A stretch of DNA of 64,000 nt from Anaerocolumna cellulosilytica (GTDB lineage Bacteria > Bacillota > Clostridia > Lachnospirales > Lachnospiraceae). This document shows, piece after piece, positions 36,334 to 57,709 of the stretch (its first letter is position 1; each line of letters opens with the position of its first letter). The position numbers and the translations under genes are program-made. The notes beneath the pieces are model-generated. The model saw only the letters and a program-made list of their open reading frames with translations. It did not search any database and was not told the DNA's origin. Where the stretch lies: positions 4,645,501 through 4,709,500 of the forward strand of contig NZ_AP023367.1 of the NCBI RefSeq assembly GCF_014218335.1. Direction: 5' to 3'.

Positions 36334-37119
36334 TTATTGCAGGTATTTCCATATGTTGTAAAGATTAATGCCAATCAAAAAAATCATCATATAAACACAC
36401 AATTTATCAATCAATTTATCATTTATTTTTTTATTCAAATTCCTTCCACATACACCACCGGCTATGCCCGCCGCTATCATCAGAACCAGTAAAACAAGCG
36501 GAAAGTTGGGTATATTTCCTGATAATACTGTACTTATTAAACTTGTAATCTGAGAAAACAATATAATATACAAAGAATTTTCAGCTGCCACCTTTGTAGA
36601 CATAGAAAAGAAATAGTATAAAACTACCAGATTAACGGGCCCTCCTCCAATTCCCAGAAATGATGACAACATACCTAGTATACTGCCTAATAGTAAGCAC
36701 ATGATTGGGCTCGTCATTTGATATGTATTGATTCTTGCTTTATGCAAAGAATAAACTAAAGTTCCTATTGTAATAATAAACAAGCATACAGCCTGTATTG
36801 CTCCTATCATGTTTTTATCGGTGCATATGGATACCAAGCTTTCAAATAGCTCTTTACCTGCTATACCACCAAAAGCTGCTCCGATAGCTAACGGTGTTCC
36901 TGTCTTTACATTAATATCCGATACACCTTCCAGCCTTGATCGTATAAACGTATAGCCCGCCATAGAAAGTACGGTACAACCAGATAAAAAACTTATTGTT
37001 GTAACACTTATTACGCCAAAAGCATCCAGCACCGGCTTAATTATAATTCCTCCTCCAATTCCGCAAATAGCTCCAAGAACGGAAGCAATAAAGCATATCA
37101 GGAAAAATATAAGATACAT
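36334..37119 (-). CDS. TauE/SafE-family sulfite/organosulfonate exporter
   Basis: A 261-residue integral membrane protein with about eight helices. The family's glycine-rich repeats are both present: GAICGIGGGIIIKPVLDAFG near the N-terminus and SFLGIGGGPVNLVVLYYFFSM in the second half. TauE/SafE proteins export sulfite, sulfoacetate or related anions, and a few act in sulfate or thiosulfate traffic. ATG 37119 is chosen because AGAGGAG lies 8 bp ahead; longer frames would overlap the maturase. It is the last gene behind sulfatase 1 and the maturase, 20 bp after the latter. That strongly suggests it removes the inorganic sulfur anion released by the sulfatases. Confidence 0.88.
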   Translation of the reverse strand: MYLIFFLICFIASVLGAICGIGGGIIIKPVLDAFGVISVTTISFLSGCTVLSMAGYTFIRSRLEGVSDINVKTGTPLAIGAAFGGIAGKELFESLVSICTDKNMIGAIQAVCLFIITIGTLVYSLHKARINTYQMTSPIMCLLLGSILGMLSSFLGIGGGPVNLVVLYYFFSMSTKVAAENSLYIILFSQITSLISTVLSGNIPNFPLVLLVLMIAAGIAGGVCGRNLNKKINDKLIDKLCVYMMIFLIGINLYNIWKYLQ

Positions 37120-37139
37120 ATACTTTTCTCCTCTGTGTA

Positions 37140-38249: not shown

Positions 38250-38274
38250 CTTTTACCCTCTTTTCCTAAAGAAT

Positions 38275-39753
38275 CTATCTATTTATCTTCCCCTTTTTGA
38301 AATTGGCAATAATCTTAAGTTCTCCTCTTGCACTTGGGGGATTCTCTGTCCAACGTTCTTTTTCTTTCCAACCGGTGACTTTCTCGTAATACTGAAACCA
38401 TTTTAAGTTACGTGCCCGTCTATATTGCTCAGTCTCAATTTCTTCAGGTTTTCCATATAAACCCGCAATGTTTACAAACCATTCCCTCAGCTTTGGAAAT
38501 TTTTCTATTATATTAACTGTTTCCTCAGGATCGTTCTTTAAATCAAACAATAAATCAAATCTCTCATACCCATGATAGGATATAAACTTACATTCCCTAT
38601 ACCGGAGCATAATACCATAATGAATTTTCTCCTTATAGCTATCTGTAAATTGGCTGATTACGACCCTCTCATAATCCTCTGCTCCCTCTTGAGTCAATAG
38701 TTGTTTTAAGCTTTTACCATCTGCTTCTTCACAAAAGGCAGTTTCAGCTAAATCACATAACGTTGGAGCAAGATCTAAAATACTAACCGGCGATATAATT
38801 TTCTTTCCGGCTCTTATATCCGTACCCTCAAAAATCATGGGTATTCTCACGGATTTTTCAAAAAATGTCTGTTTCCCAAATATCCGTCTTTCACCAGCTT
38901 GATCTCCATGATCGGATAGATACCCAAAGACATGTCCATTTTTCTTCTTTCTGGCATAGGATAAAAATGCATCTCTGACTTGTCCTATCTGACTGTCCAT
39001 TTTCTCTACCATTCCACAATATGCAGCATAAACACCTCTTACCGTATTTTCAGTCACTTCATGATTGCAGTGGTTTTTCAGAAGTTCAAAACCCTCCATG
39101 TAATCCGGAATGTTGTTAAAAAACTTTGGTATACTTACCCTGTCTGAATATTTCAAATAAAGCTCTTCTGGGGCAACATAAGGAAAATGAGGGCCATATG
39201 TGCCAACTATAATAAACTGGGGCTTTTCATGCTCTTGGTCTAAATATGCAAGGGCTGTCTGCACAATCTGTTCATCGTAATGTAGTACCGGAGATTCTCC
39301 GGCACCGACAACATCTGTACACCAAGGCTCCCCAAAAGTTTTTGCAAAGTCACCTCTCTCCTTTTTGAGCTGTTCGACCGGTCTATTCCATCCTGTAGGT
39401 GTCATATCCGCAGCCAATCTTTTTGTAAACCCATGACGCTGGTCGGTACCTACAAAATGCATCCGGCCAATCAAAACCGTTTCATAACCGGCTGCCGCCA
39501 AGGCATGAGTAAAGCAAGGTATCTGACTGCTTAGCGTATCATTATTGGTAAAAACCCCCGTTTTCCCAGGTATAAGCCCTGACATCATTGACATTCTTGC
39601 CGGAACACAAAGGGGACAGGATGTATATGCAGCCTCAAAAGATGTTCCTTCATCTCTTAAACGCATTAAATTGGGGGTATCCACCCTCTCACTCCCCCAC
39701 TCAGAAAACAGAGGGCTGTGCTGATCACTCATAAAAATTAATATGTCTTTCAT
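38275..39753 (-). CDS. Sulfatase 1 (cysteine type, cytoplasmic)
   Basis: A family S1 (type I, formylglycine) sulfatase of 492 residues. The modification motif is CVPAR (Cys about residue 49) in SCPLCVPARMSMMSG. Metal-binding DQH lies near the N-terminus (IFMSDQH), and YLSDHGDQAGERR holds the second metal-site aspartate and histidine. The start is ATG 39753 with GGAGG 5 bp ahead; the frame also opens at an upstream TTG inside that ribosome site. There is no signal peptide, so it acts in the cytoplasm. It leads the unit sulfatase 1-maturase-TauE/SafE and has regulatory motif A upstream. It is closest in overall style to sulfatase 5 (shared TSCPLC.PARMSM.SG and YGPHFPYVAPEELY-like segments). Confidence 0.93.
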   Translation of the reverse strand: MKDILIFMSDQHSPLFSEWGSERVDTPNLMRLRDEGTSFEAAYTSCPLCVPARMSMMSGLIPGKTGVFTNNDTLSSQIPCFTHALAAAGYETVLIGRMHFVGTDQRHGFTKRLAADMTPTGWNRPVEQLKKERGDFAKTFGEPWCTDVVGAGESPVLHYDEQIVQTALAYLDQEHEKPQFIIVGTYGPHFPYVAPEELYLKYSDRVSIPKFFNNIPDYMEGFELLKNHCNHEVTENTVRGVYAAYCGMVEKMDSQIGQVRDAFLSYARKKKNGHVFGYLSDHGDQAGERRIFGKQTFFEKSVRIPMIFEGTDIRAGKKIISPVSILDLAPTLCDLAETAFCEEADGKSLKQLLTQEGAEDYERVVISQFTDSYKEKIHYGIMLRYRECKFISYHGYERFDLLFDLKNDPEETVNIIEKFPKLREWFVNIAGLYGKPEEIETEQYRRARNLKWFQYYEKVTGWKEKERWTENPPSARGELKIIANFKKGKINR

Positions 39754-39811
39754 CTTTGCCTCCAAATTAAACTGCTTTAAAACAGACCGTGCGTTTCAAA
39801 TAATTTTATAT

Positions 39812-39872
39812 CAGACCATTTACTATAATTATAAATTAGGATTTCCATTGTTGCTTTCAATTTAATGGTCTG
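39812..39872. repeat. Inverted repeat spanning promoter A
   Basis: CAGACCATT (39812-39820) and AATGGTCTG (39864-39872) are perfect inverted copies placed on either side of the -10 box of the sulfatase 1 promoter. A further AACAGACC lies at 39781-39788. This is compatible with a second regulator. Confidence 0.45.
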
Positions 39873-39890
39873 TTGTATCATATTTCCGAC
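39828..39890 (-). promoter_or_regulatory. Activator-type promoter A (sulfatase 1 unit)
   Basis: The plus-strand motif TATCATATTTCCGAC (39876-39890) lies exactly 42 bp from a perfect minus-strand TATAAT (39828-39833). No -35 is recognisable. The motif centre would be at about -62, a class I AraC-activator position. The same module occurs at promoters B and C. Confidence 0.8.
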
Positions 39891-39961
39891 CTCTTTTAAA
39901 GTTTGCATAAATTAAGTCTTGTAACTTTAAGATACTTTGTGTTCCAAAAAAGACGAAATTG

Positions 39962-40018
39962 CAAAAAAATAGGAACTTAAAGAACAAAGTTAAAAGCCCT
40001 CTGTTTTTTAAGTTCCTA
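39962..40018 (-). terminator. Terminator after sulfatase 2
   Basis: Minus strand arms TAGGAACTTAAAAAACA and TGTTCTTTAAGTTCCTA match at 16 of 17 positions, followed by TTTTTTT. It closes the long ABC transporter-sulfatase 3-sulfatase 2 unit. Confidence 0.9.
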
Positions 40019-40111
40019 AATTATAATGACCTGTCAGATTATTTCCTAAAGGTATATTTTTTCAGGTTGAAACCAAATTCATATATTTGCTTTCCTCTAT
40101 CACTTCCTATC

Positions 40112-41620
40112 TCATATCTCGGGGTGTCTCTTCTCCAATTCTTCTGCCGCCCAGCTTCTTCCGGTTTCATTGAGACGCTTAATGTACTCTGGTAAATGCC
40201 CTTTGCAGTGAAAGGGTCCACCCTCTGCAAGTACCGTCCACAGCGGGTCAGTCTGACACCGATGCACCATCTTTTTCATATTTTCCGTATACCATTTGTC
40301 CAATAAATAAGTACCCTTATGGCATAACTCCGGTTTTTCTTTCGCAAGATCATGTAACTCGTACGGATCCTCTGTGATGTTAAACAGCATCTCTTCCGGA
40401 TGTAAATGATACCCGTCATGATAATTTCTGATATACATCCAATCCTCAAATCTCACAGATCTCTGGCAAACATGAGCACACTGGCTAACTACAAGATACT
40501 CTCTTCCACCGTCCTTACCTTCCTTAAGCGTCTCTGCATAACTGATACCATCATATTTCGGTTCTTCAAAAATTCCGACTATCTTTTCTGATATATTATG
40601 TGCCGGAAGTGGTCCTAGCAATTCCTTTAAGGTAGGAAGTAAATCCAGATTATAGTGCAAACCGTTTGATACCGCATTCTTTGCCGCACCCGGCCACTTA
40701 ATAATCATTGGGATATGAGTGGTGGAATAATCCGCTGAGCCATGCTCATCATATTCTCCAAGCTCGCCTAGGCTTTCACCATGGTCAGCTGTTACAATAA
40801 TAGCCGTTTCTTCATAGATACCTTCTGCCTTCAACCATTCAAGAATTTTGCCAATATGTTTATCCATATACCAGATACCCGTATCATAATCATCCATGTT
40901 TTTCTTATAGTCTTTCATCGTTCGGATTTGTCCAAGCTGTCTGGGAAATCTAGGGGTTACTGCATCATCATACATGGACAGTTCCCTTGCACTGTGAGGA
41001 CCCACTTCCTTTTCCCTATGCTCGTTCAATATATCTTCATTCATCCATTTTTCCTGAGGAAGCGGCATGTCTTCAAAGGGATTGCCTTCTTCTAGAGGCG
41101 TGCGGTACGGTGTATGAGGATCCCAATAATGGACATGCATAAACCAGTCCTCTTTGTTTTTATTGCACGCAAGCCAGTCCAGGGCAAATGGTGTGACCTC
41201 ATCTGCAGTTTCCAATCCTCTTTTTCCAACATTATAACATTCGTTAAAACCTGCGTTGAACCACCATGCTCCATGACGCTCCGGAAAAGAACTAACGGAT
41301 ACAGTATGCATTCCGTAACGCTTTAATACAGCCGGAAGATTATCTCTTGAGTTTCCATCCATCATAATGCGTCCAGTACCATCAAGCCTCATGTCTGCGG
41401 CAGTTCCTCCATGTCCGACTACTCCGGTATGTATTCCGAACTTCCCGGTCACCAAGGCTGCCCGCGAAGGCAGGCAAGGAGCATCTGAGCAGTAATAATC
41501 ATTATAACGCACCCCATCCTGCGCAATGGAATCAATAAAGGGAGAAGTAGGCCTCGGATAACCATAGCAGCCCAAATGATCCGGTCTTAAAGTATCACAA
41601 TCAATCAATAGAATTTTCAA
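40112..41620 (-). CDS. Sulfatase 2 (cysteine type, cytoplasmic)
   Basis: A family S1 sulfatase of 502 residues. The formylglycine motif is CLPSR at about residue 49 (DAPCLPSRAALVTGKFG). Metal ligands appear in LLIDCDTLRPDHLGCYG and IIVTADHGESLGELGEYDEHGSADYS. There is no signal peptide. HYWDPHTPYRTP is a substrate-pocket stretch of the family. It is the last gene of the unit starting with the ABC ATPase, 45 bp behind sulfatase 3, and is followed after about 90 bp by a strong terminator. Its N-terminal architecture (DTLRPDHLGCYG) differs from sulfatases 1 and 5, so a different sulfate position or sugar is likely. Confidence 0.92.
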   Translation of the reverse strand: MKILLIDCDTLRPDHLGCYGYPRPTSPFIDSIAQDGVRYNDYYCSDAPCLPSRAALVTGKFGIHTGVVGHGGTAADMRLDGTGRIMMDGNSRDNLPAVLKRYGMHTVSVSSFPERHGAWWFNAGFNECYNVGKRGLETADEVTPFALDWLACNKNKEDWFMHVHYWDPHTPYRTPLEEGNPFEDMPLPQEKWMNEDILNEHREKEVGPHSARELSMYDDAVTPRFPRQLGQIRTMKDYKKNMDDYDTGIWYMDKHIGKILEWLKAEGIYEETAIIVTADHGESLGELGEYDEHGSADYSTTHIPMIIKWPGAAKNAVSNGLHYNLDLLPTLKELLGPLPAHNISEKIVGIFEEPKYDGISYAETLKEGKDGGREYLVVSQCAHVCQRSVRFEDWMYIRNYHDGYHLHPEEMLFNITEDPYELHDLAKEKPELCHKGTYLLDKWYTENMKKMVHRCQTDPLWTVLAEGGPFHCKGHLPEYIKRLNETGRSWAAEELEKRHPEI

Positions 41621-41665
41621 AATTTACTCTCCTCGCTTTATAGGTTTATATTTGGTACTACTATG

Positions 41666-43165
41666 TTAAGGCTGCAACAACCCAAATCTCTTATAGACGG
41701 CACTAGGAGCCTCGTTATCCTTCAAAAGTAAGGTCAGCGCTTTCGTCATACGTCTCTCAATCTCAGGCAACTCAACGGGATTCTCTTGTTTAGAATCCAT
41801 CTCTAAATCAAACAGTAAATCCTTATCTATTTTATCCGCTCCTCGGGGTGTTACAGGTATACGTAAAACTTTACAGCCTTTGGTAAAAGTAAAACCTTCT
41901 GTTAGTTCAGCTCCCTGCATTTCTGTTACAGAAAAAGGCATGGTCATGTGTGTAGGCATTAGGGTGTACTCGTCCACTTTTGTATCTGGAGTACGCACCG
42001 CCCTCATATATACATACCGGCCGTCCGTAATATTAATTGGTCCGCCATGTATTCCAAACATACCAAATTCACGAACTTCTTCGTCTGCTTCTACTGCATA
42101 TTTAAGAGATTTCCCCAGCATATCCTTAGGAATAGGAATCTGAAAAAAGTCAAGTAGGGTTGGCGCAATATCAATGGTCTGCACCAATGCCTTCCTGTGC
42201 ACACCAGAAACTCTGCTGCGGGGATCCCATAGGAAGAATGGAGTATGGGCAATTTCATTGTATTCCGGCATGGTACTTTTCCCCCACCAGTTATGCTCAG
42301 CAAGACTGAAACCATGATCTGTATTTACGATTAGCATCGTATCTTTCCACATATTGTACTTGTCCATAATATACAGTACTCTTCCAAGGCTTTTATCACA
42401 AAACTCTACCAGAGAATAATACTTCTTACGCATATTCTCAATGGTTTTAGCATCCTCTGTTACTTGTGCATATGGCGGCCAATCCTTCTCAAATGTATTG
42501 TCAGGATCAAACCAATGGCTCAGGTAATTATCCGGAGAATCAAAAGGTTCATGCGGGTCAAAGGTTTCAATCTGGACAAACCAATTGTCGTAAGACACAT
42601 TACGAGTAATGAAATCGATACCGTTATCAAACGTATGGGACTGAGGATAGTTTTCTTCTCCCCTATGTAGCATTCGGTTGTCCATGTTCTGCCAACCACC
42701 TTTTTTTCTCATGGTCTTTAGTGGTTCTGACTGTACATGATGATTTAACAATTGCGGGGAATATTCCGTTGGTCTCTCAGCACAATTGCCAACCCAGGTA
42801 TCCGTTTCCTGCCCACGAAAGCATTCCCAGGTGGAATAACGATTATGATAGGTCGCACCACCATCCTGTAAATAATGATAATGATCCGTTGTAAGATGTG
42901 TATGAATTCCCGCCTTTTTTAATATCTCCGGCATAGAATCATCAAACGGTTCTATCGGACCCCAGCTGCGGTGTAAAAAATTAGGGCGACCTGTGTGTAA
43001 CTCACGCCTTGCCGGCATACATGGCAGACTGCAGACATAACTATTATCAAAGGTAACCGTATGCTTTGCCAGGCGTTCAAAATTCGGCATGCGAATTGCT
43101 GTCTCACCATAACAGGATAGAATATCCCGGCGAAGAGAATCGTACATAATCATAATAGCTCGCAT
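41666..43165 (-). CDS. Sulfatase 3 (cysteine type, cytoplasmic)
   Basis: A family S1 sulfatase of 499 residues. The formylglycine site is CMPAR at about residue 49 (CSLPCMPARRELHTGRPNFLHRSWG). The metal ligands are in IMYDSLRRDILSCYG and IVNTDHGFSLAEHNWWGK. It lacks a signal peptide. The motif FVQIETFDPHEPFDSP matches the DPH-type region of sulfatase 2, suggesting that the two derive from one branch. It is 90 bp behind the second sugar permease gene in the same unit, tying desulfation directly to the transporter. Confidence 0.92.
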   Translation of the reverse strand: MRAIMIMYDSLRRDILSCYGETAIRMPNFERLAKHTVTFDNSYVCSLPCMPARRELHTGRPNFLHRSWGPIEPFDDSMPEILKKAGIHTHLTTDHYHYLQDGGATYHNRYSTWECFRGQETDTWVGNCAERPTEYSPQLLNHHVQSEPLKTMRKKGGWQNMDNRMLHRGEENYPQSHTFDNGIDFITRNVSYDNWFVQIETFDPHEPFDSPDNYLSHWFDPDNTFEKDWPPYAQVTEDAKTIENMRKKYYSLVEFCDKSLGRVLYIMDKYNMWKDTMLIVNTDHGFSLAEHNWWGKSTMPEYNEIAHTPFFLWDPRSRVSGVHRKALVQTIDIAPTLLDFFQIPIPKDMLGKSLKYAVEADEEVREFGMFGIHGGPINITDGRYVYMRAVRTPDTKVDEYTLMPTHMTMPFSVTEMQGAELTEGFTFTKGCKVLRIPVTPRGADKIDKDLLFDLEMDSKQENPVELPEIERRMTKALTLLLKDNEAPSAVYKRFGLLQP

Positions 43166-43255
43166 TTTTAGACTCCTTTTCTATATTACAAGTTAATAAG
43201 TATTTGTTATCTAAAGGGGATGCTGTAAATTATCTTATTTACAGCATCCGATTAT

Positions 43256-44290
43256 TTATGTAATTTGGAGATGTCTTTCCCGTCTGGTTTCCTGGGCTAG
43301 TTTAATCCGCACTTTCTTTTTCTTAAGATATTCCATTTTACTGGAATTCGTGCGGTAAATCATGAAGATTAAAAACAAGGAATAGATAATAATGTTTTGA
43401 GTACTTCCTCCCAATGCCAGTTTGGAAAGCCCTAAAGTCAACAATTTTACACTTACTGCACCTCCAAGAACACCGATTACTGGGTTTCTGACAAAGGATC
43501 CAAGCCAGATACCCAAGAACATCGGGAACATATTACTGAATACACTGCCATTGCTGCTCATACCCAAACCTGGTGTTAATGTTCCTTTATAAGCGGTATC
43601 AAAAACGCCCGCACAGGCAACCAGCGCACCTGCAAGTACATAACATAAAATACAGTTTTTAAAAATATTAATACCTGAATCCGCTGCCAATTTCTGACTT
43701 CCCTGAATCGCTCGGCGGCTGTAACCAAAGGTACTGTGCTGGAACAAAAAGGTCATGACGAGAATAAGCAGGATTGCTACTAATAATATAAACGTTAGGT
43801 TAGATAAAATCTCAACATTTTTTTTCCCATACAGCATAAGTCCCTGCTGGTTATAAGCACCAAAAGAAAAACATTCAAAAATCAGTGTCATACCAATGCC
43901 AAGTACCATTGGAAGAATACGCATATTGACAAATAAAACTCCCACTAAAAGTCCGCATAATGCTCCGATTACTATACTTAATACAAGAATACCTATGCCT
44001 CCCAAATTAAACTGCAGGGCAATATTTCCTCCAAAGATACATCCCATAAACATCTGTGCACCAGCGGAGAGATCCATACGCCCCAAAAGTAAATTACAAT
44101 TAAGAGCCATGGCAAAGCAATAGCAGGTAATGACTGTACGGAAAAGCACTCGCAAATCGGCCTTAGAACTGATTACTCCCTTACCAGTTACCAATCTGTC
44201 AATGATTTCAAATATTATATACACAGCAACCGGCAATATGATTAATTTCAGCACACTTTGTAATTTATAACTAACTGTTTTATGATTCAT
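43256..44290 (-). CDS. Sugar ABC transporter permease (second, CUT2/RbsC type)
   Basis: A 344-residue membrane protein with about nine hydrophobic segments, of the ribose/galactoside permease group. The region LLGRMDLSAGAQMFMGCIFGGNIALQF corresponds to the family's NLS(V)G motif. The C-terminal tail is very basic (KKKKVRIKLAQETRRERHLQ). It lies 42 bp after the binding-protein gene. Together with the 45.7-kb permease it would make a heterodimeric channel, whereas many CUT2 systems use one permease gene. The two permeases are not close copies of each other. Confidence 0.88.
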   Translation of the reverse strand: MNHKTVSYKLQSVLKLIILPVAVYIIFEIIDRLVTGKGVISSKADLRVLFRTVITCYCFAMALNCNLLLGRMDLSAGAQMFMGCIFGGNIALQFNLGGIGILVLSIVIGALCGLLVGVLFVNMRILPMVLGIGMTLIFECFSFGAYNQQGLMLYGKKNVEILSNLTFILLVAILLILVMTFLFQHSTFGYSRRAIQGSQKLAADSGINIFKNCILCYVLAGALVACAGVFDTAYKGTLTPGLGMSSNGSVFSNMFPMFLGIWLGSFVRNPVIGVLGGAVSVKLLTLGLSKLALGGSTQNIIIYSLFLIFMIYRTNSSKMEYLKKKKVRIKLAQETRRERHLQIT

Positions 44291-44332
44291 GAATGTTTCC
44301 TTCCTTCAAATAATAACAAAAATATGGCTTGT

Positions 44333-45652
44333 TTATTCAAGACGGGATTTTGCTTCATCATAGCTAACATTGTCATAGACCGATTGGATTGCCTCATAAG
44401 TCAAGTCTGGTTGATAGATACCAAGCGCCTGGTCAATTACATTATAATCCACAATCCACTTATTACCTCCTGCCACATCCCAATTAGACAATGTATTCAT
44501 CTGCTCCGGATTCTCAATTGCCCACATTTTAAACAGTAATTCTGACGGTTCACCACTTGACTGCACATTCAAATTGCTATAACCAGTTAATGCATTATAT
44601 ACCTTTACAAACGCCATGCTACTTACAAGACTGGTTGATTTTACCGATGCCATATTAACCGAAGTATTACCAAAAGAATCTTTTGTATTAAATGCATTCA
44701 AAAGCGAATTTGAAATGGACGCTACCGAAGCTACTTTAATATCTTTTTTAAATGCCTTCTCTACTTCATCAACAACAACCGCTGTTTCAGTAAAGGATTG
44801 TCCGGACTGAATAAATACGCCGTAATTTCCTGTTTGCAGAGCCGTACTGACACCAGCCAGCCAACCTTCGTTTTGTGATGAAACACCCGGATAAATATAA
44901 ATCTTTATATTTTTATCATTTGCAACCTCAATTGGTGCGGATACAACTGCAAGATTTTTAATTGTGTCTTCATAAGTCAGACCATACTTCTCCTGAAGTG
45001 CTGATAAAACGGCTTCCGTACACTCTGAATGCTGTGTGTTCCCTTTATATGCTAGGGAAGAAGTAATTAGGAAACCTTCACTTCCGTCATCGGAAGCATT
45101 ATTTGTCAGCCATTGCTTAAACAAGCTTCCAACATATGGCTGGTCAGCGGCGAAGGAACCTGAAAAGTTCTCATAGCCTCCTGTAAAAGCCTCTTCTACT
45201 ATTGCTGAACGCTGGTTATTTATTACATAAGCCATGCCATATTCCTGGCATACCTGAACCATTTGATTGGCATCTTCTGAACGGTAGCTGATAATCGCAT
45301 CGGCACCCAGATCAGCACAATTCTCAATAAAGCTTAATTCATCATCCGTATCTTTTACTTGTTCGGAAAATATAAATTCTACATTATATTTTTTTGCTAG
45401 ATAGTTTTCATAATAATCACGACGAATTACTACCTCATCAATGGCTTGAGGTTCACAGACACCGATTTTAAAAGTCTTAAAATCCTGGGGCGTCTTTTGT
45501 TGTTTATCAGTTCCGCTTGTCTGTTCTGTTTCTGTCGTTTCTTTACCTGTTTCCACCGCTGTATTATTATCACCGGTATTTCTTTTGCCGCAGGCAACCA
45601 AACTAAAGCCCATAGCTGCTATTAAAGCCAATGCCAAAATTCTTTTTTTCAT
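44333..45652 (-). CDS. Sugar ABC transporter substrate-binding lipoprotein
   Basis: The receptor component of the CUT2-like transporter, 439 residues, longer than RbsB-type proteins (about 300). The signal peptide ends with lipobox SLVAC (Cys about residue 21), followed by a Thr/Glu-rich linker of about 35 residues. The mature domain has FKIGVCEPQAIDEVVIRRDYYENYLAKKYNVEF and ADLGADAIISYRSEDANQM, typical of periplasmic-binding family 4. The ligand is probably a sulfated mono- or oligosaccharide judging by its neighbours; the sequence itself does not show it. It stands between the two permease genes. Confidence 0.88.
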   Translation of the reverse strand: MKKRILALALIAAMGFSLVACGKRNTGDNNTAVETGKETTETEQTSGTDKQQKTPQDFKTFKIGVCEPQAIDEVVIRRDYYENYLAKKYNVEFIFSEQVKDTDDELSFIENCADLGADAIISYRSEDANQMVQVCQEYGMAYVINNQRSAIVEEAFTGGYENFSGSFAADQPYVGSLFKQWLTNNASDDGSEGFLITSSLAYKGNTQHSECTEAVLSALQEKYGLTYEDTIKNLAVVSAPIEVANDKNIKIYIYPGVSSQNEGWLAGVSTALQTGNYGVFIQSGQSFTETAVVVDEVEKAFKKDIKVASVASISNSLLNAFNTKDSFGNTSVNMASVKSTSLVSSMAFVKVYNALTGYSNLNVQSSGEPSELLFKMWAIENPEQMNTLSNWDVAGGNKWIVDYNVIDQALGIYQPDLTYEAIQSVYDNVSYDEAKSRLE

Positions 45653-45712
45653 ACTTTTCTCCCTTTCTTTTATATAAAATTTTATTGCTACCTTATAAAA
45701 AAATCTCTTGTC

Positions 45713-46726
45713 CTACACCTGCTGTCTTGTCGGCAAGGTCTGGGGGCGTTCACTATTCATATATACAAGCAGCAGGAATACTGCTCCTCGTACTCCCTGG
45801 ATTACCGTAGGTGAAATACCGACCATCAATAATCCCTTATTCAGAGCGGAAACTGTCAAGGCTCCGAGAAGTCCTGCATAGGAGTTGGATTTTGCTCCGC
45901 CAAAAATAGACATTCCTCCCAATACAGTGGCAAGCATAACATCCATTCCCATTCCGTTTCCAACCTCGGTACTAACCGAACCTGTACGTATTATAGTAAA
46001 TACCGCCGCCAGTCCAACTCCGATACCAGCCATAAAGAAACTGATATACTTTGCCTTATTGGCATTCATCCCAGTCTGATTCGCACAGATTTCATTGCCG
46101 CCGATGAAGCGTAGTTCCCGTCCGGCTGATGTTAAATGGAATACAATAAAACACAATATAAAATATATTATAAATGCAGCATACCGGAAGCCAGCATTCT
46201 CCATTATTTTACACATTGCATAATCAACTTTCAAAGTCTCCGGTCCTAAAATATTGCTTACAATTGCACTGTACAACTGTATCATAACTATAGCCACTGT
46301 AATAGATTTTACTCCGAATATAACACTCATTGTACAATTAAACAGCATGAGCAGTATACCGGAAATAATTGCCGAAACGACCATTAGATTCGCATTTCCC
46401 GTCAAATTATATACTAACGCTCCAATGGTTGCGGACAGGGCCATGGTATTTCCTACAGAAATATCTAGATTTCCCGTTGTATATATAAATGAAACTGCCG
46501 TAGCCATGGTACCGATAATAATGGCCTGGTTAAATATACCTACGAATATATTTTTTCCAAAGAAATCTCCTCCTGTTGCAGCTCCAAAAACTGAAATAAT
46601 CAGAAGAAGAACTACAATCGGAAATGTAAAGGAAAAAGAAGGGTTATTTTTAACAATACTGACACGATCCGTCAGGCTAAGACGGGGCGCGCCTTTCATA
46701 ATTTCAGTATCTGACATATTACTCAC
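45713..46726 (-). CDS. Sugar ABC transporter permease (first, CUT2/RbsC type)
   Basis: A 337-residue polytopic permease with about nine membrane segments. The conserved TTGNLDISVGNTMALSATIGALVYNLTG segment is the family's N-L-D-I-S-V-G motif. MGMDVMLATVLGGMSIFGGAKSNSYAGLLGALTV near the C-terminus is the ATPase-coupling region of RbsC/XylH. It begins 5 bp after the ATPase gene stop, so the two are translationally close. Likely substrate: a sulfated saccharide, by context. Confidence 0.92.
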   Translation of the reverse strand: MSNMSDTEIMKGAPRLSLTDRVSIVKNNPSFSFTFPIVVLLLIISVFGAATGGDFFGKNIFVGIFNQAIIIGTMATAVSFIYTTGNLDISVGNTMALSATIGALVYNLTGNANLMVVSAIISGILLMLFNCTMSVIFGVKSITVAIVMIQLYSAIVSNILGPETLKVDYAMCKIMENAGFRYAAFIIYFILCFIVFHLTSAGRELRFIGGNEICANQTGMNANKAKYISFFMAGIGVGLAAVFTIIRTGSVSTEVGNGMGMDVMLATVLGGMSIFGGAKSNSYAGLLGALTVSALNKGLLMVGISPTVIQGVRGAVFLLLVYMNSERPQTLPTRQQV

Positions 46727-46731
46727 CTTTC

Positions 46732-48240
46732 TTAAATCATACTTTCAATCAGTTGATGTTCGTTGTAGGATTCCTTGCGATAAAATTCCCCGTTTAACGT
46801 TCCGTCTTTTAAAATAAGTATACGGTCAGCCATACCAATAAGCTCGGGCATTTCTTCACTAATCATTACGATTGATTTACCCTTTTTTTTCATTTCATAT
46901 ATTAGTCGATACATAGACGCTTTTACACCAATATCCACCCCACGGGTCGGACAATCCAGAATCAATATATCCGCATCGTCTGCAATCCATTTACCAAATA
47001 CTACTTTTTGCTTATTTCCTCCTGACATTGCCTTTACCGGCTGGAGTATATTTACACATTTAATGGCTAGGGCATCCACTTGAAGCATCGCATATTCTTT
47101 TTCTTTTTTACTTGACATAATAGAACCAAACAAGCGGTTTTTCTTATAGCCGGTACTTTGTATATTGGCACCGATGGACGCGTTCAGTTCCAAAGACTCT
47201 GTATCACGATTCTTGGAGACATACCCCATTCCGTTTTTAAAAGCAATCTGAGGACTTTTTACAACCACATCGGACTGTGTAATTACAACTTTACCGTCCA
47301 CCACTTCCTCCAAACCATAAAGTGCACGTCCAAGTTCATGCATACCGCAGTCAGAAAGTCCACCGATTCCCAATATCTCACCTTTATGTAATTCCAGGTC
47401 AAAGCACAGCAGGTCTTTCATTGTAGTAATGCAATCTGCCTTAAGAACAACCTCTTCACCAAATCCATCCGTATCAACACGGTAATAATTTCCTTTAATC
47501 TCACGACCTACCATTTTATGCTTAATATCATTTTCTTCATAGTCGGCTTTCTCTATGTTATCAATGATAACACCGTCCCTTAGAATGGTAAGTGTGTCGC
47601 AATGTTCTATCAATTCGTCCAAATCATGGCTGATAAAGACAACTGCTTTATTTTCCGCTGCGGCTTTATGCATCAGTGTATATAGAAGATTCCTTCCTTT
47701 TTGCGACAGAGCGGTTGTCGTTTCATCTACCACAAAAAGGTCCGGATTATTATACATGGTTCGTGCAATCTCAATGAGTTTGCGTTCCTGCATGTCATAT
47801 AAGTGGGTAGGATATGCAGGATTAATATGGGATGCACCAATCTTATCCAACGCTTTCTTTGCTTCTGCATTCATCTTTGACCGACTTATAAACATACCTC
47901 TCTTAAATGGCTGATAATTACCAAGAAAAATATTTTCCGCAACTGTGACATTGTCAATTGTGCCGGCTTCCTGCACAATCATCCCAATTCCGTTACTAAC
48001 AGCTTCCAAAGCATTTTCTGGCTTCCAAGGCTTTCCTTTGTAATACATTTCACCGCTGGTCGCTGGCTGTATTCCTGCAATAATGGAAGAAACTGTAGAT
48101 TTACCCGACCCGTTTTCACCAATGAGTCCCCTAATTTCTCCGCGCTTTATGGTGATATCCACAGATTTAAGAGCTACCGTCACTCCAAAATTTTTACACA
48201 TGTCTTTTACTTCAAACAGAACCTCACCTTTTGCTGACAT
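46732..48240 (-). CDS. Sugar ABC transporter ATPase, tandem (RbsA/MglA type)
   Basis: A double-domain ATPase of 502 residues. The first nucleotide-binding domain has Walker A GENGSGKST and Walker B DLFVVDETTTALS. Its signature loop is reduced to YDMQERKLIEIART. The second domain has the usual degenerate P-loop of this family (GIGGLSDCGMHELGRALYG) but a full signature (MSGGNKQKVVFGKW) and Walker B ILILDCPTRGVDIG. The start is ATG 48240 with AAGGGAG ahead; an in-frame upstream extension begins inside the leader. It is the first gene of the unit ATPase-permease-binding protein-permease-sulfatase 3-sulfatase 2 and has promoter module B. Confidence 0.93.
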   Translation of the reverse strand: MSAKGEVLFEVKDMCKNFGVTVALKSVDITIKRGEIRGLIGENGSGKSTVSSIIAGIQPATSGEMYYKGKPWKPENALEAVSNGIGMIVQEAGTIDNVTVAENIFLGNYQPFKRGMFISRSKMNAEAKKALDKIGASHINPAYPTHLYDMQERKLIEIARTMYNNPDLFVVDETTTALSQKGRNLLYTLMHKAAAENKAVVFISHDLDELIEHCDTLTILRDGVIIDNIEKADYEENDIKHKMVGREIKGNYYRVDTDGFGEEVVLKADCITTMKDLLCFDLELHKGEILGIGGLSDCGMHELGRALYGLEEVVDGKVVITQSDVVVKSPQIAFKNGMGYVSKNRDTESLELNASIGANIQSTGYKKNRLFGSIMSSKKEKEYAMLQVDALAIKCVNILQPVKAMSGGNKQKVVFGKWIADDADILILDCPTRGVDIGVKASMYRLIYEMKKKGKSIVMISEEMPELIGMADRILILKDGTLNGEFYRKESYNEHQLIESMI

Positions 48241-48308
48241 GTTGTTTTCTCCCTTCTTCAGATTGAACTTCAAACGATAAGTAAATCAAACTGAATCGTC
48301 ATACATGA

Positions 48309-48371
48309 ATTATAAAAAAATTTTCAGTTCTTCACTATAAAATTCAAGATGTCAGCTATCATATTTCCGAC
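48309..48371 (-). promoter_or_regulatory. Activator-type promoter B (ABC transporter-sulfatase unit)
   Basis: The plus-strand motif TATCATATTTCCGAC (48357-48371) lies exactly 42 bp from a perfect minus-strand TATAAT (48309-48314), again without a good -35. The 15-bp motif is identical to that at promoter A. The predicted leader is about 60 nt before the ATPase ATG. Confidence 0.8.
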
Positions 48372-48461
48372 TATCTGTTTTCCCATATTCGAAACCTTAT
48401 CAAAAAAATTAATATATTATCGATTTTTAGACCTTTTACTATCCAATGATTATACAACATT

Positions 48462-50078
48462 CTATTTTTGCTGAAGATCTGAACAATACCGAATAATTTC
48501 AAACATTGACATTTTTTTGTCTCGTATCAGAGCCTGTATCTCCTCCACCCGATTGGGAGGACATATCTTTTTTACCCTGTTCCATGTCATTTCATAATTG
48601 AAACGGTCATCATAGGTAAATGGCACTATATCGCAGGTAGACTGGTACCAATCCAGCATTTTCAAACGCATTTCCGATACTATGCCTTGATATGACCCGT
48701 TCTCTGCAAGATTATGTGTCTCACCCGTATCACTCTGCATATCAAACAACTGATCCGGTTCATATAACCGACGTATATATTTATACTCCTTTGTACGAAG
48801 CATCGTTGCCTTTGTATGAGCCCTATCGTCCTCTTCTGCCTTTATACGAGGCCAGTATAAATTACGGGGATTGACTCCTTCTTCTCCGTCAACATGACTT
48901 TCATCACAATGTATCTCACCTGCAAGGCGTCCTCCCTCGCAACAGGCATATTCACGAACAGGCAGGCTGCGGTCTGCTATATTACTTCTCAGGCTGATTC
49001 CAAAATGCGTATGGTTAGGTTTTATTCCTGCAAAATCAGTCGCTGTCCCATAGAAATCTACAAGTTCAACAATACTATCGCTTATTCCCGGATCAATCTC
49101 ATACCCTTTTGGAGGCTTAATTAAAAACGGAACTCGTACAAGATTATCATAAAAAGTATTTTGATTTTTTTCAGTAAGGCCAAACTGCCCCTGATAATCA
49201 CCATGATCACTGAAAAAGAAAATAGCACAGTCATCATAGATACCTGCTGCTTTCAGTCCATCGCATAACCTTCGGAACATATCATCCACCTTCAGGCACA
49301 TTCCTAAATAGCAAGCACGTAATTCATCCCAGTCTTCTTCCGTAAATCCTTCCATTCCTTGATTTTCCCTGATTTTCGTTTCAATTACAGGTTCAAAGGA
49401 ACCCGGACAGCGTTCTTTAATTCTCTTAGAAAGTTTTGTTCTGTCAATCGCAGAAAAATAAGGCTCCTCCACTCCATACTCCGGATGTGGGTTTACCAGG
49501 CCTAAAAACAGACAGAGAGGCCTTTCGTCAATCGGATTATGTGCGCGGTGAATTGCCGCATCCACGATTTCATCATCACTGCTGTAACGTATCCCATTCT
49601 CATCTGTTTTAAGACATCCCTGATAATGAGAGTAGTAATATTTACCGCCCGGCTCACCACGCATTCCCGGATTCACAGGACCAGGCGGCGGCATAACATC
49701 TCCTCCGTAGAAGATTTCATTAGCATGTGCTTCAAAAACTCCTTCCTCCTGTCCCGGAAGAAAATCATTTCTAGCGTTCATCCATACATAATATCCATCT
49801 TCTTTTAATTCTTTTAATATACTGCTTTCGTGGGTATGGAGCATATGATTCATGGTACGATGACCGTGTACATGCGGATACAAGCCTGTCAAAAAACTGC
49901 ATCTGCTGGGGACACACACAGGATTCTGGCAGAATGCATTCCGGTAAGAAACTGCCTCATTTGCGGTAAATTCATCTAAAAATGGTGTTTGGGCTGCTGG
50001 ATTCTCTCCCATATGTGCCAATGCAGCATTCTGCATTTGATCTGGATTAAAGATAATAATATGTGGTCGTTTATTCAT
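48462..50078 (-). CDS. Sulfatase 4 (cysteine type, cytoplasmic)
   Basis: A family S1 sulfatase of 538 residues, the longest of the five. The formylglycine site is CVPSR at about residue 55 (NPVCVPSRCSFLTGLYPHVHGHR). Metal ligands are in IIIFNPDQMQNAAL and IFFFSDHGDYQGQFGLTEKNQNTF. There is no signal peptide. Overall it resembles the arylsulfatase/choline-sulfatase-like branch with NPDQMR-type starts, different from sulfatases 1-3 and 5. ATG 50078 (MNKRPH) is chosen on homology; the ATG four codons upstream abuts the AAAGGA sequence. It is last in the unit sulfatase 5-GH3-sulfatase 4. Confidence 0.9.
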   Translation of the reverse strand: MNKRPHIIIFNPDQMQNAALAHMGENPAAQTPFLDEFTANEAVSYRNAFCQNPVCVPSRCSFLTGLYPHVHGHRTMNHMLHTHESSILKELKEDGYYVWMNARNDFLPGQEEGVFEAHANEIFYGGDVMPPPGPVNPGMRGEPGGKYYYSHYQGCLKTDENGIRYSSDDEIVDAAIHRAHNPIDERPLCLFLGLVNPHPEYGVEEPYFSAIDRTKLSKRIKERCPGSFEPVIETKIRENQGMEGFTEEDWDELRACYLGMCLKVDDMFRRLCDGLKAAGIYDDCAIFFFSDHGDYQGQFGLTEKNQNTFYDNLVRVPFLIKPPKGYEIDPGISDSIVELVDFYGTATDFAGIKPNHTHFGISLRSNIADRSLPVREYACCEGGRLAGEIHCDESHVDGEEGVNPRNLYWPRIKAEEDDRAHTKATMLRTKEYKYIRRLYEPDQLFDMQSDTGETHNLAENGSYQGIVSEMRLKMLDWYQSTCDIVPFTYDDRFNYEMTWNRVKKICPPNRVEEIQALIRDKKMSMFEIIRYCSDLQQK

Positions 50079-50160
50079 CGTTACGCACATTCCTTTCTTT
50101 TACTGTTCTGTTCTTTTTGTCCTTTTCTTCCACTTTTTCCACTATATAGCAATAATTATT

Positions 50161-52221
50161 CTATTCTAAAATAAACTTTCCCGATATTAAATTATCTGAA
50201 CTATTACCTACATATATTTCATACTCCATATGTTCAATTTCCATTTGGTTTTTCCTCTCATTATACCAACCAAGTTCTGATACCTGACAAGATATTTCAA
50301 CCGTCTTATTCTCTCCGGCCGCTAAATCGACTCTTTTAAACCCTCTCAATATCTTCACCGGCCTATCGACTGCTGAATTCTGAAATCCAACATACATCTG
50401 GATGACTTCTGCGCCATGCCGTTTTCCGGTATTTGCAACATTGCATTGCATTGTAATATTTCTGAAATCACTTTTAATTTGAAGGTTATCTATTTTAAAG
50501 GTTGTATAAGATAGTCCGAATCCAAACGGATATCTTGGTTTAATTCCTTCCTTCTCTAATTTGGTATAACCATGATAGTAATCATAATGCTGATACTCCG
50601 TATCCCAATTTACTTGAGGCAAATCCGATTCTTTGATTGGAACAACATAGGGCAGCTTTCCACTCGGATTAATATCACCAAAAATGATTTCACCAATTGC
50701 CGTTCCTCCCTCCATTCCCGGATAATAAGCCATTATAATTGCACCAACATAGTCTTTCCATTCTTCCACCATAATCATATTGCCGCCAATCATTACAGCA
50801 GCTGAATTTCTATTCAGAGGCCCAACTTCCTGCAATAACCGTATTTCTTCTTTATGCAAACCCAGGCTTGCCACCCGGTCTCCGCCTACTGCACCCGTAT
50901 ACAGATCATTCTGGTCTTCTGCAACATATTCACCTTCATCGTTGTAATCATACCCCACAACAAAAACTACTGCATCCGCACTTTTTGCCAATTCTTTGCA
51001 ACGATTTAAATCCATTCCTCCATAATAAATAACTTCTGTTTCAGGAGCCGCATTTATCAATCCTTGCATTGGAGTTACTATATATTGAGGATATACTTCA
51101 CTTGAACCACGATCTCCGATTACTTCCTTTATGCCTAATTTTCCAAGTACAAGCAGCTTTTTTATAACATTTCTGTCAAAGGGCAATGTTTCGTCTTCAT
51201 TTTTTAATAAGGTGATACCCTCTCTAGCAGCCTGCAAGGCTAATTGAATATGCTCAGGGCAGCCAATCACACCGGCGCTTACTTTGCTGCTGCATTCATC
51301 AAAAGCAAGCAGTGTCCGGATAATACGAAGGGCAGCTTCATTTATTTTATCCTCCGTGACTTTTTCATCTTTTACTGCATTCACCAGCTTATCTCCATAG
51401 TATGTTGTGCAGCACATTTCCATATCCTGGCCACCATTGGCAGCTTCGACCGTATCCCGAACACCCCATACAAAATCACTCATTACGAAACCGTCAAAAC
51501 CCCACTCTTTCTTCAAAACCTGATTTAATAAATAATCATGATGTCCGCAGTAGGTTCCCTTGTATAAATTATAGGAACTCATAATACTAGCAGCACCCTC
51601 ATCAATGCATTTTTTAAAATGCGGAAGAAAAACCTCCCTTTCTGTTCTTTTATTGCAATCAATATTTACTTTAAAACGTGAGTTTTCCATTTGGTTAAAA
51701 GCAAAATGTTTAACACAGGCGATAACGCCTTCTTTTTGTACACCCCTTACCAAAGCAGAGCCCATTTCTCCAATATGAAATGATTCTTCCCCATACGTTT
51801 CCTGGCTTCTACCCCATCCCGGATTATAAGGTACATTAATGCATATGCCTGCAAATAAATTTCCTTTATAAGCCAAAACTTCTTTTCCTATTGCATGCCC
51901 TATTTTTTCTTCCAAATCTGTATCAAAAGCAGCGCCGCGCAGCATAGAAACGGGGAAACAGGTACTTTTTCCCGTTCCGCAGACAACTCCTCTTGGCCCG
52001 TCACAAAATAACATAGGCGGTACATGATAGTCTGGTAATCCGCCTGCAGGATAAGGAATATAGTTATAGTGCTGATCCGTTTTTTTTCGGATGGCTTCTC
52101 TTACTTCCTTAAAATCTATTTTGCCGCTCATCAGCGAAATCTTATCTTCCAATGTTAAGGAATTTACGATACGCTGTGCCTTCTCCGTATAAGTTAACCT
52201 TTTACTTTTATTGCACTCCAT
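50161..52221 (-). CDS. GH3 glycoside hydrolase (beta-glucosidase/xylosidase type)
   Basis: A retaining exo-beta-glycosidase of family GH3, 686 residues. The (beta/alpha)8 domain comes first (CDGPRGVV, GWGRSQETYGEE, CVKHFAFNQMENSRF). The nucleophile aspartate is in GFVMSDFVWGVRDTVEAANGG. The alpha/beta sandwich follows (GDRGSSEVYPQYIVTP, VVFVVGYDYNDEGEY), then a C-terminal fibronectin III-like domain (VANTGKRHGAEVIQMYVG). There is no signal peptide, so it acts on imported saccharides. It lies between two sulfatase genes with gaps of 23 and 82 bp, implying hydrolysis of the desulfated (or partly sulfated) sugar. The exact sugar is unknown. Confidence 0.93.
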   Translation of the reverse strand: MECNKSKRLTYTEKAQRIVNSLTLEDKISLMSGKIDFKEVREAIRKKTDQHYNYIPYPAGGLPDYHVPPMLFCDGPRGVVCGTGKSTCFPVSMLRGAAFDTDLEEKIGHAIGKEVLAYKGNLFAGICINVPYNPGWGRSQETYGEESFHIGEMGSALVRGVQKEGVIACVKHFAFNQMENSRFKVNIDCNKRTEREVFLPHFKKCIDEGAASIMSSYNLYKGTYCGHHDYLLNQVLKKEWGFDGFVMSDFVWGVRDTVEAANGGQDMEMCCTTYYGDKLVNAVKDEKVTEDKINEAALRIIRTLLAFDECSSKVSAGVIGCPEHIQLALQAAREGITLLKNEDETLPFDRNVIKKLLVLGKLGIKEVIGDRGSSEVYPQYIVTPMQGLINAAPETEVIYYGGMDLNRCKELAKSADAVVFVVGYDYNDEGEYVAEDQNDLYTGAVGGDRVASLGLHKEEIRLLQEVGPLNRNSAAVMIGGNMIMVEEWKDYVGAIIMAYYPGMEGGTAIGEIIFGDINPSGKLPYVVPIKESDLPQVNWDTEYQHYDYYHGYTKLEKEGIKPRYPFGFGLSYTTFKIDNLQIKSDFRNITMQCNVANTGKRHGAEVIQMYVGFQNSAVDRPVKILRGFKRVDLAAGENKTVEISCQVSELGWYNERKNQMEIEHMEYEIYVGNSSDNLISGKFILE

Positions 52222-52244
52222 TAATATCCTCCTCTATGAAAACT

Positions 52245-53744
52245 TCACTCGGCTAGTATATTTTTTATTCTTCTTTTTATATGCTCAGGCAGTTCTATGC
52301 TGGACTTGTAATATTTTTCTGGCTCTTTTAGAGCATCCGGTGTGGTTATCCACCGCTCACTTTGGTCAAGCTGTGTATGCTTTATCCACCTAGCCTGAAT
52401 CTGTAGATGCTTCTCCCTGATAACATACCTGTTTATGATTTCTTTTGTATCCCAGTTTTTATTTGCAATCTCTTTCATCTCTTTGGCTATTACAGGCTGT
52501 TTATCAATTAGATTCTCTAATTCATTCCGATCTTTTTCAAGGTCAAAAAGCAGGTCTGAATCCTCGTACCCAGCATACGTAATATATTTCCACTTACCCT
52601 TTCTAACCATTCTTCCCGGCACTCTTCGCTGGTTAGCAGACCCCTCCAAAATCTCGCTAAGGACATACCTCTCTTCTTCTGTACCACCTTTAAGCTGTGG
52701 AGTCAGACTTTTTCCATCTTGTTCAGGAAGCTGTTCCCCACCTGCCAGTTCACATAGAGTTGGTCCCACATCCATGATGCTGCAAGGGTTTTTAATCTTC
52801 CCGCCTGCCATAATACCGCTGCCCTGAAATACCATAGGGATATGGGCTGACATTTCAAAAAAAGTCTTTTTACCATAGAGTCCCCTTTCCCCAACCTGAT
52901 CTCCATGATCTGAAAGATAAAGGAATACACCTTCCTTCCTGCTGCGCTTTAAATACTCATTCCATGCATCGTATACAAACCCTATATTCCTGTCCATGAA
53001 CTCTATCATTCCCCAATAAGCAGCCCTTGCTCTTATAACCGTTTCCTCTGATATATCTCTTAATTTCTCTTCCAGAATGGGATGTTCGTGATTACAGCCT
53101 TTGCTTAAAGTCTGAGGATATATTACTTTATTCAGGTAATATTCATATAGCTCAACCGGAGCTACATAGGGAAAATGAGGTGCGTAGGTACCAATGACTA
53201 TGCACTGTGGCTTTTCGTGATCTTTTCCGAGATATTCCAAGGCTGTCTGTATTACATGTCTGTCATATTCCAATGTAGGTGAATTTCCACCTCCAATAAT
53301 GTCTAAGCACCCTACTTCTGTCAAAGTAAGCCCAAAGTGCTTCATTTCCCTGAACGCTCTCCGCTCTCCGGTATAAATTGGAGTGATATCGCCAAAAATT
53401 CTTTTCGTAAACCCATGCCGCTGATCTGGTCCTTCAAAATGCATCCTTCCGCACAAGACCGTTTCATAACCTTCTGCCCCCAAAGCATGGAGAAAGGTAG
53501 CCTGATCTGAGGAAATAGAACCTGCATTGTCAAGAACACCCGTTTTAGTAGGCAGCTGGCCTGACAGCATAGACATCCTTGCAGGAATACACAACGGACA
53601 GGACGTATACACCTCTTCAAAAACAGTGCCCTGTGCCGCTATCCTGTCCAGATTTGGTGTACGTATTATGTTGTCTCCAGCATATCCTGTACAGAGGCCT
53701 GCATGCTGGTCACTTAAAAATATAAGTATATCCTTTTGATTCAT
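52245..53744 (-). CDS. Sulfatase 5 (cysteine type, cytoplasmic)
   Basis: A family S1 sulfatase of 499 residues. The formylglycine site is CIPAR at about residue 52 (TSCPLCIPARMSMLSGQLPTKTG). Metal ligands are in ILIFLSDQHAGLCTGYAG and FLYLSDHGDQVGERGLYGKK. It shares long stretches with sulfatase 1 (e.g. IGTYAPHFPYVAP, HGFTKR), so the two look like paralogues with related substrates. ATG 53744 follows AAGGAG at 7 bp; a longer frame starts inside the leader. There is no signal peptide. It is the first gene of its unit and carries promoter module C. Confidence 0.93.
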   Translation of the reverse strand: MNQKDILIFLSDQHAGLCTGYAGDNIIRTPNLDRIAAQGTVFEEVYTSCPLCIPARMSMLSGQLPTKTGVLDNAGSISSDQATFLHALGAEGYETVLCGRMHFEGPDQRHGFTKRIFGDITPIYTGERRAFREMKHFGLTLTEVGCLDIIGGGNSPTLEYDRHVIQTALEYLGKDHEKPQCIVIGTYAPHFPYVAPVELYEYYLNKVIYPQTLSKGCNHEHPILEEKLRDISEETVIRARAAYWGMIEFMDRNIGFVYDAWNEYLKRSRKEGVFLYLSDHGDQVGERGLYGKKTFFEMSAHIPMVFQGSGIMAGGKIKNPCSIMDVGPTLCELAGGEQLPEQDGKSLTPQLKGGTEEERYVLSEILEGSANQRRVPGRMVRKGKWKYITYAGYEDSDLLFDLEKDRNELENLIDKQPVIAKEMKEIANKNWDTKEIINRYVIREKHLQIQARWIKHTQLDQSERWITTPDALKEPEKYYKSSIELPEHIKRRIKNILAE

Positions 53745-53864
53745 TGTATTGCTCCTTTTCTCCAAAGCCTCTCTTTTGATAAATGTATTTTTCCTATTAA
53801 TGAATGCACTGCTGCATTTGCGTTTTTACGCCTGTAAAGCTAATTGCATATGTATTTAATCCTA

Positions 53865-53927
53865 ATTATATAAATATAAATCCAGTATAACTGTAATAAT
53901 TCCGTACTGATTTATCGTATTTCCGAC
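53865..53927 (-). promoter_or_regulatory. Activator-type promoter C (sulfatase 5-GH3-sulfatase 4 unit)
   Basis: The plus-strand motif TATCGTATTTCCGAC (53913-53927) lies exactly 42 bp from a perfect minus-strand TATAAT (53865-53870). A second TTCCG at 53900-53904 is 21 bp (two helical turns) from the TTCCG of the main motif (53921-53925). This is what a direct-repeat AraC site would show. Confidence 0.8.
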
Positions 53928-54006: not shown

Positions 54007-54036
54007 AAAAACAGACAACATTTCTGCTGTCTGTTT
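54007..54036 (-). terminator. Terminator of the two-component system
   Basis: Minus strand AAACAGACA and TGTCTGTTT form a 9-bp stem with a 10-nt loop followed by TTTA. It lies 10 bp past the response regulator stop. Confidence 0.85.
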
Positions 54037-57421: not shown

Positions 57422-57463
57422 CTAGTACCATCCTGTATGAGATTTTTTGTTTACCTACTACAA

Positions 57464-57672: not shown

Positions 57673-57709
57673 GATTTAATTTTCATCTGCTGTGTTTGTA
57701 GATGTGTTG

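Follow-up and report, generated by a model that had tools for sequence, protein, structure and literature searches.

We found that a module, GTCGGAAATAYGATA-N42-TATAAT, occurs in three minus-strand copies in the Anaerocolumna cellulosilytica genome (5,430,627 bp), one heading each unit of a sulfatase/ABC-transporter/GH3 locus. The three modules are very probably operators of the kinase/YesN system encoded next to them, with YesN predicted to act as a class II AraC-type activator. In the mechanism that we propose, a sugar signal would cause the kinase to activate the YesN-type response regulator, which would bind, probably as two subunits arranged head-to-tail, to a pair of direct half-sites spaced by 21 bp (two DNA turns), namely the strong distal half-site GTCGGAAATAYGATA and a weak proximal half-site reaching the -35 position. 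YesN would then recruit RNA polymerase to these promoters, in which the -10 is perfect and a -35 is missing, such that the sulfatases, the maturase, the sugar importer and the GH3 enzyme would be switched on together. YesN binding, its dependence on phosphorylation, activation and a sulfated saccharide as inducer are steps that we infer from the DNA sequence.

Gene content of the sulfatase locus

The analysed stretch of 64,000 nucleotides, hereafter the window, carries the locus at ~36-57 kb, where all genes are on the minus strand in the order kinase/YesN, unit C, unit B and unit A.

36334-39765, minus strand: unit A, with sulfatase 1 (38275-39765), an anaerobic sulfatase maturase (37140-38249) and a TauE-type exporter (36334-37188)
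40112-48273, minus strand: unit B, with an ABC ATPase (46732), a permease (45713), a lipoprotein (44333), a permease (43256), sulfatase 3 (41666) and sulfatase 2 (40112)
48462-53765, minus strand: unit C, with sulfatase 5 (52245), GH3 (50161) and sulfatase 4 (48462)
54009-54036, minus strand: terminator-like hairpin between yesN and unit C, from a hairpin scan
54046-55638, minus strand: YesN-type response regulator, the proposed binder, with a receiver and an AraC-type HTH
55712-57421, minus strand: sensor histidine kinase, the proposed partner (PF06580 72.8 bits, cut-off 25.2; HAMP)
61699-63999, running off the end of the window: second AraC-type gene of the window (HTH_18 at G000:C1:4707775-4708011)

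Pfam was run on 38 proteins of the window, and AraC-type domains were sought genome-wide. The maturase scored above its NCBIfam cut-off (451.7 vs 441 bits) and the CxP[AS]R motif was present in all five sulfatases. None of the five has a signal peptide by eye and the 439-aa protein of unit B has a lipoprotein-like N-terminus, likewise by eye, which together suggest that the locus imports a sulfated saccharide that would be desulfated in the cytoplasm. This lipoprotein-like protein (44333-45652) is encoded between the two permeases, the usual position of a substrate-binding protein, and is a probable binding protein; searches of Pfam and NCBIfam up to E 0.001 gave no match for it. The hairpin scan returned 23 terminator-like hairpins, compared with a mean of 13.2 in shuffles.

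A shared module at three promoters

The elements of the three modules, given as distal half-site, proximal half-site and -10 hexamer, were as follows.

39876-39890, minus strand: site A distal half-site, GTCGGAAATATGATA, before sulfatase 1 - maturase - TauE
39855-39869, minus strand: site A proximal half-site, ACCATTAAATTGAAA, weak, 21 bp from the distal one
39828-39833, minus strand: site A -10 hexamer, TATAAT
48357-48371, minus strand: site B distal half-site, GTCGGAAATATGATA, before the ABC transporter - sulfatase unit
48336-48350, minus strand: site B proximal half-site, ATCTTGAATTTTATA, kept in Anaerocolumna sp. AGMB13025
48309-48314, minus strand: site B -10 hexamer, TATAAT
53913-53927, minus strand: site C distal half-site, GTCGGAAATACGATA, before sulfatase 5 - GH3 - sulfatase 4
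53892-53906, minus strand: site C proximal half-site, TACGGAATTATTACA, kept in Anaerocolumna sp. AGMB13025
53865-53870, minus strand: site C -10 hexamer, TATAAT

The original prediction placed the motif at 39876-39890, 48357-48371 and 53913-53927, all of which hold, as do the minus-strand TATAAT hexamers starting at 39828, 48309 and 53865 and the gap of exactly 42 bp between motif and TATAAT (3/3). It had also described the promoters as lacking a recognisable -35, in agreement with the hexamers that we read by eye at 17-bp spacing in A, B and C (AAGCAA, TAGTGA and CAGTTA). All three promoters therefore have a perfect -10, with the -35 weak or missing. Within module B there is one weak candidate for an alternative promoter, ATGATA-17-TATAGT, matching consensus at 9/12 positions; the consensus promoter scan itself performed near chance, with 81 found against a mean of 62 in shuffles.

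The motif had been presented as a lone element, and we found it to be instead one half of a 21-bp direct repeat. When each promoter was compared with its own distal half-site at 51 offsets (9 to 59) and the scores were summed over five promoters, which comprise A, B, C and two orthologous promoters of a relative and of which three are independent, offset 21 was best both with 9-mers (25, next 20) and with 15-mers (44, next 33). The earlier description of the second halves in A and B as weak is accurate letter by letter, but does not extend to the summed comparison, in which offset 21 led all 51. Columns invariant in five of five promoters include a C in the second half-site. The proximal half-site occupies offsets 21-35 and the -35 position offsets 34-39, given a 17-bp spacer and assuming that TATAAT is the true -10. 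With TATAAT as -12 to -7, the half-sites would lie at about -69 to -55 and -48 to -34, such that the second half-site is predicted to meet the -35 position, where there is no recognisable hexamer. With its site upstream of the -10 and extending to the -35 position, where no -35 is present, each promoter has the layout expected under activator dependence.

Confinement of the module to the locus

We assessed how often the motif arises elsewhere. In the window, seven matches were found with up to three mismatches (the three exact ones and four others, each with three mismatches), compared with 3.9 expected in all by shuffling. The genome scan that had been proposed as a check recovered the exact 15-mer only three times, all at the sulfatase locus. 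Allowing up to two mismatches gave 32 places in the genome (3 exact, 2 with one mismatch and 27 with two) and the reversed control pattern gave 53, so near-matches are not enriched. Among the 30 of 32 near-matches that were read in context, TATAAT at +42 occurred only in the three modules, and 23, none of them belonging to the three, were inside open frames of at least 150 codons. The pattern core-N48-TATAAT with up to one mismatch was found at 14 places including the three, as against 14 for the reversed control; one further mismatch-free place, at 3130160, is inside an open frame, and 4 of the other 11 places are outside open frames of 150 codons. Without mismatch, the proximal half-site pattern returned site C alone in this genome and a further site, D (see below), alone in the relative, while with two mismatches it returned 15 and 16 places, respectively, versus 5 and 13 for the control. 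Confinement to the locus applies to strong sites, since four-mismatch sites such as D would escape the genome-wide search.

For a null test, the three intergenic regions were resampled at first order (n = 150). A 15-mer common to the regions with at most one mismatch appeared in 0/150, and the real regions have one; an exact common 9-mer appeared in 1/150, and in 0/150 at equal distance to TATAAT, and the real regions have both. The genome count and this test together rule out a chance origin of the module.

Searches in wider sets of genomes were also made. A genus-wide module search (15 genomes, two mismatches) gave 28 places, five of them known, against 19 for the reversed control, and showed no further module. 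A draw of 397 genomes from the family, which did not include the relative described below, contained the module in this genome only. A scan of a contig collection with gaps of 40-44, from which the window's own record may be absent, returned eight stretches, comprising C and B of Anaerocolumna sp. AGMB13025 and six others. Two of these six have a gap of 42, and the surrounding 5-8 kb had no match to proteins of the locus, with one Paenibacillus exception, where there are distant kinase- and YesN-like genes and the motif is inside the kinase-like stretch with a gap of 44. We took the six as chance.

Conservation in a second Anaerocolumna genome

Only one other genome with the locus was found, Anaerocolumna sp. 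AGMB13025 (NZ_CP121445.1; G010), such that conservation refers to two genomes. The whole locus is kept there, with proteins 72-94% identical, and modules B and C are kept with the exact 42-bp spacing. The distal half-site of module B has one mismatch; in module C the distal half is identical and the proximal half nearly so, and the flanks have drifted. Module A was not found in this relative, the best match having seven mismatches. In its place (L065:8400-8640), the gap holds an array of ~70-bp tandem repeats, and every repeat contains an ATTGAAAAAA/TTTTTTCAAT inverted repeat.

A scoring matrix built from the five sites revealed a degenerate site D in the relative, before sulfatase 4, with the structure GTCTCATTTACGATA-N6-ACCGGAATTACGACA-N21-TAAAAT. 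Its score was 23.7, compared with a maximum of 15.5 in six resampled 64-kb sequences, and both its half-sites are at the same positions as in the other modules; each matches the half-site at 11/15 positions, and the proximal one has the GGAA core. The best other real places scored 17.7 (window 33316, plus strand), 16.1 (L069:14130) and 15.9 (L077:14362); all are inside genes and were taken as background. The prediction that the module is repeated at all three promoters is thus correct for this genome but does not carry over to the relative, where site A is not kept and D is present. The absence of A and the presence of D there mean that individual units gain or lose sites and that the frame itself persists.

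The adjacent regulator and kinase

The open frame of yesN runs to 55692, and the start at 55638 was chosen by eye. Its product has a receiver (PF00072, 72.2 bits, cut-off 30.2) and a C-terminal AraC-type double HTH (PF12833, 69.8 bits, cut-off 33.6; PF00165, 45.8 bits, cut-off 26.6), and its matches among PDB sequences include the AraC DNA-binding domain 2k9s, MarA 1bl0 and a 'response regulator yesN' chain, 3lsg. The acidic pair and the phosphoacceptor Asp of the receiver are present by eye. Most response regulators have a conserved switch Lys in the receiver (LKP), and YesN reads LQP, with Gln at this position, as do 8 of 12 aligned homologues including this one (from L064, L067 and L069-L073). 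The Gln would make canonical phosphorylation less certain and leaves the domain assignment unaffected.

YesN is 86.5% identical in the relative, with 97% identity in the HTH region and 85% in the rest of the protein, and the kinase is 72% identical, with 62% in the sensor region and 80% in the HAMP and kinase part. The pair adjoins the locus in both genomes, with yesN immediately preceding module C each time. A different promoter-like sequence, TTGACA-17-TAATCT (within 57422-57709), belongs to the kinase/yesN operon. An element, ATCANAAATATGACA, lies 53 bp before the -35 of this operon (~57531-57545), matches the half-site at 11/15 positions by eye and is conserved in the relative; autoregulation of the operon through this element is possible.

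Sister yesN loci

Among sister yesN promoters, some have similar geometry with other letters and many have none. At G008_33 and G009_34, from other Anaerocolumna, GTCA-type direct repeats are 21 bp apart and end 22 bp before TATAAT, and G008_36, G010_34 and G009_37 have a conserved bipartite block at the matching place with no visible repeat. GTC repeats were seen by eye at G005_36, where the automatic test preferred another place. Two regions downstream of yesN-like genes, L133 (G008) and L134 (G006), have similar promoters with direct repeats 21 bp apart, which in L134 read TCTTAATTTAGTACA / TCGTAATCCGGTATA, and both have TAAAAT 35 bp after the start of the second repeat.

We scored half-site similarity at 21 offsets in 26 regions downstream of yesN genes, of which 5 without a -10 candidate were left out and 21 counted. 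Offset 21 had the highest mean (6.76, next 6.24), a narrow lead; it ranked first in 5/21 and 15th or worse in another 5/21, including the close sisters G009_37, G008_36 and G010_34. Two pairs of regions are near-copies, so not all are independent. Six of the 26 regions had been viewed before the test was designed. Repeating the test on the other 20 regions, fetched without a prior look (15 with a candidate) again placed offset 21 first (7.00 vs 6.67), unbeaten in 4/15. The support for offset 21 from sister loci is suggestive, not strong, and the weaker outcome on the unviewed regions makes a YesN operator and a fixed frame both slightly less likely.

A fixed frame, in which a pair of half-sites is spaced by 21 bp and ends 20-22 bp short of the -10, can be seen at the present locus and at G008_33/G009_34, appears as a bipartite block in G008_36/G010_34/G009_37 and is similar in the distant L133/L134. 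We tentatively consider, as a possibility that is itself rather doubtful, that a YesN sub-clade with Gln at the switch Lys position could combine this frame with letters private to each system, insulated codes and non-canonical switching of the receiver. If true, each sugar locus would have its own insulated operator code.

Alternative explanations

The operator could belong to another AraC-type regulator, with YesN controlling something else, which we regard as unlikely. The gene from 61699 onward, whose product combines an AraC-type HTH with an extended C-terminal part (at least about 450 aa), is in the same window, where the genome-wide HTH_18 search found AraC-type domains in this gene and yesN only. 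With 74 HTH_18 domains above the Pfam cut-off in the genome, binding by a different family member is conceivable, and YesN is the predicted binder. In the relative, the protein from 61699 onward has matches of 74% and 43% over nearly the whole length, but the 74% orthologue is 1.5 Mb from the sulfatase locus, whereas kinase/YesN stays at the locus and yesN directly precedes module C in both genomes, which favors YesN as binder. Same-geometry promoters directly downstream of some other yesN genes point the same way. In the 60 kb around the relative's locus (L064-L066), the 61699 orthologue, the esterase and the HAD gene were without a match at E 1e-10 or better, and GH3b had only a 24% match, to the other GH3. 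It seems quite improbable that YesN, or a different protein, uses the sites for repression or as part of a loop instead of for class II activation. AraC-type family regulators can work in more than one mode, and the switch residue of the YesN receiver is unusual, but the placement of the sites, on the upstream side of the -10 and reaching to the position of a -35 that is itself missing, is the one expected of activator-dependent promoters. In 3/5 published AraC-type two-component systems, tandem repeats located upstream of mapped starts were likewise taken to mark activators (PMC8579813).

The identical motif and spacing might also be a relic of promoter duplication without regulatory meaning, and in favor of this the genes behind A and C are paralogous (window sulfatase 1 and the relative's sulfatase 5, 45% identity; window sulfatase 5 and the relative's sulfatase 1, 47%). 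However, the three promoters are 25-43% identical across flanks, spacer and downstream sequence while the 15-mer, with one C/T change, and the -10 are kept, and this low flank identity rules out recent duplication. Unit B, moreover, starts with an ABC ATPase and not a sulfatase, and at site C the second species has kept mainly the half-sites and the -10, which leaves a relic very improbable. Action of the element in RNA, as a leader or attenuator and not as an operator, is hardly conceivable given that the motif is upstream of the -10 in all copies and that no Rfam family reached its gathering score in 34000-64000; the analysis turned up nothing in its favor. Catabolite repression was rejected as well: the cre consensus, WTGNAANCGNWNNCW, had 0 matches in the window versus 1.0 expected, a count that covers the consensus only, as degenerate cre would escape it. 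On sequence grounds, the best-supported reading is the one put forward at the outset, a single-activator regulon with the adjacent YesN as predicted binder, which is favored by confinement to the locus, conservation of B and C, linkage to kinase/YesN and 97% identity in the HTH.

Relation to known systems

In the E. coli araBAD promoter, the half-sites for AraC are at about -69 and -48. These positions match those predicted here, and the two systems share a conserved distal half-site and a variable proximal one at the -35; E. coli AraC differs in being a one-component arabinose sensor, compared with a two-component regulator here, and in the sequence that it binds. In the available portion of one araBAD study, I1 is strongly conserved and I2 is more variable and adjacent to the -35 (PMC2893085).

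Closer in kind are the operators of Caldicellulosiruptor bescii, where, according to the accessible text, sugar ABC transporter genes have a kinase and an AraC-type response regulator encoded next to them (PMC8579813). Tandem repeats upstream of start-associated promoter elements were found for 3/5 of these systems, which were read as activators (PMC8579813), and the parts available describe two sites of tandem-repeat structure for BxgRS and a site search with two units of 21- or 32-bp periodicity, worded as 'inverted repeats' where tandem was seemingly meant (PMC8579813). The likeness lies in a kinase and regulator beside a sugar ABC transporter and in tandem repeats upstream of the promoter, whereas letters, genus and substrates are different, and the available text names no sulfatases (PMC8579813). 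XydS/R of Clostridium cellulolyticum also has an AraC-type response regulator, XydR; on its own, the effector domain of XydR binds upstream of the operons that it targets, and autoregulation of the XydS/R operon was not seen according to the available text (PMC3572039); in that portion its targets are xylan-related and no half-site consensus is defined (PMC3572039). The pneumococcal YesNM and TCS07 systems share the YesN-type naming and the carbohydrate link, the accessible part of the source connecting them with carbohydrate or host-glycan use and proposing motifs by comparison, but the sequence is different and that part reports no clear repeat for YesN (PMC11034029). As far as the available parts of these sources go, binding sites of YesN-type regulators are poorly defined (PMC3572039, PMC11034029).

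Our literature search gave no report of these sites, their letters or their link to a sulfatase locus among the matches listed, and a search for Anaerocolumna with sulfatase found no paper. The architecture is already known, and the finding is ordinary in kind; the letters and the link to the sulfatase locus are new as far as the search shows. The sites provide a precise and testable candidate operator for a two-component system expected to govern the use of sulfated sugars by a member of Anaerocolumna (Lachnospiraceae), and they could help to find its inducer.
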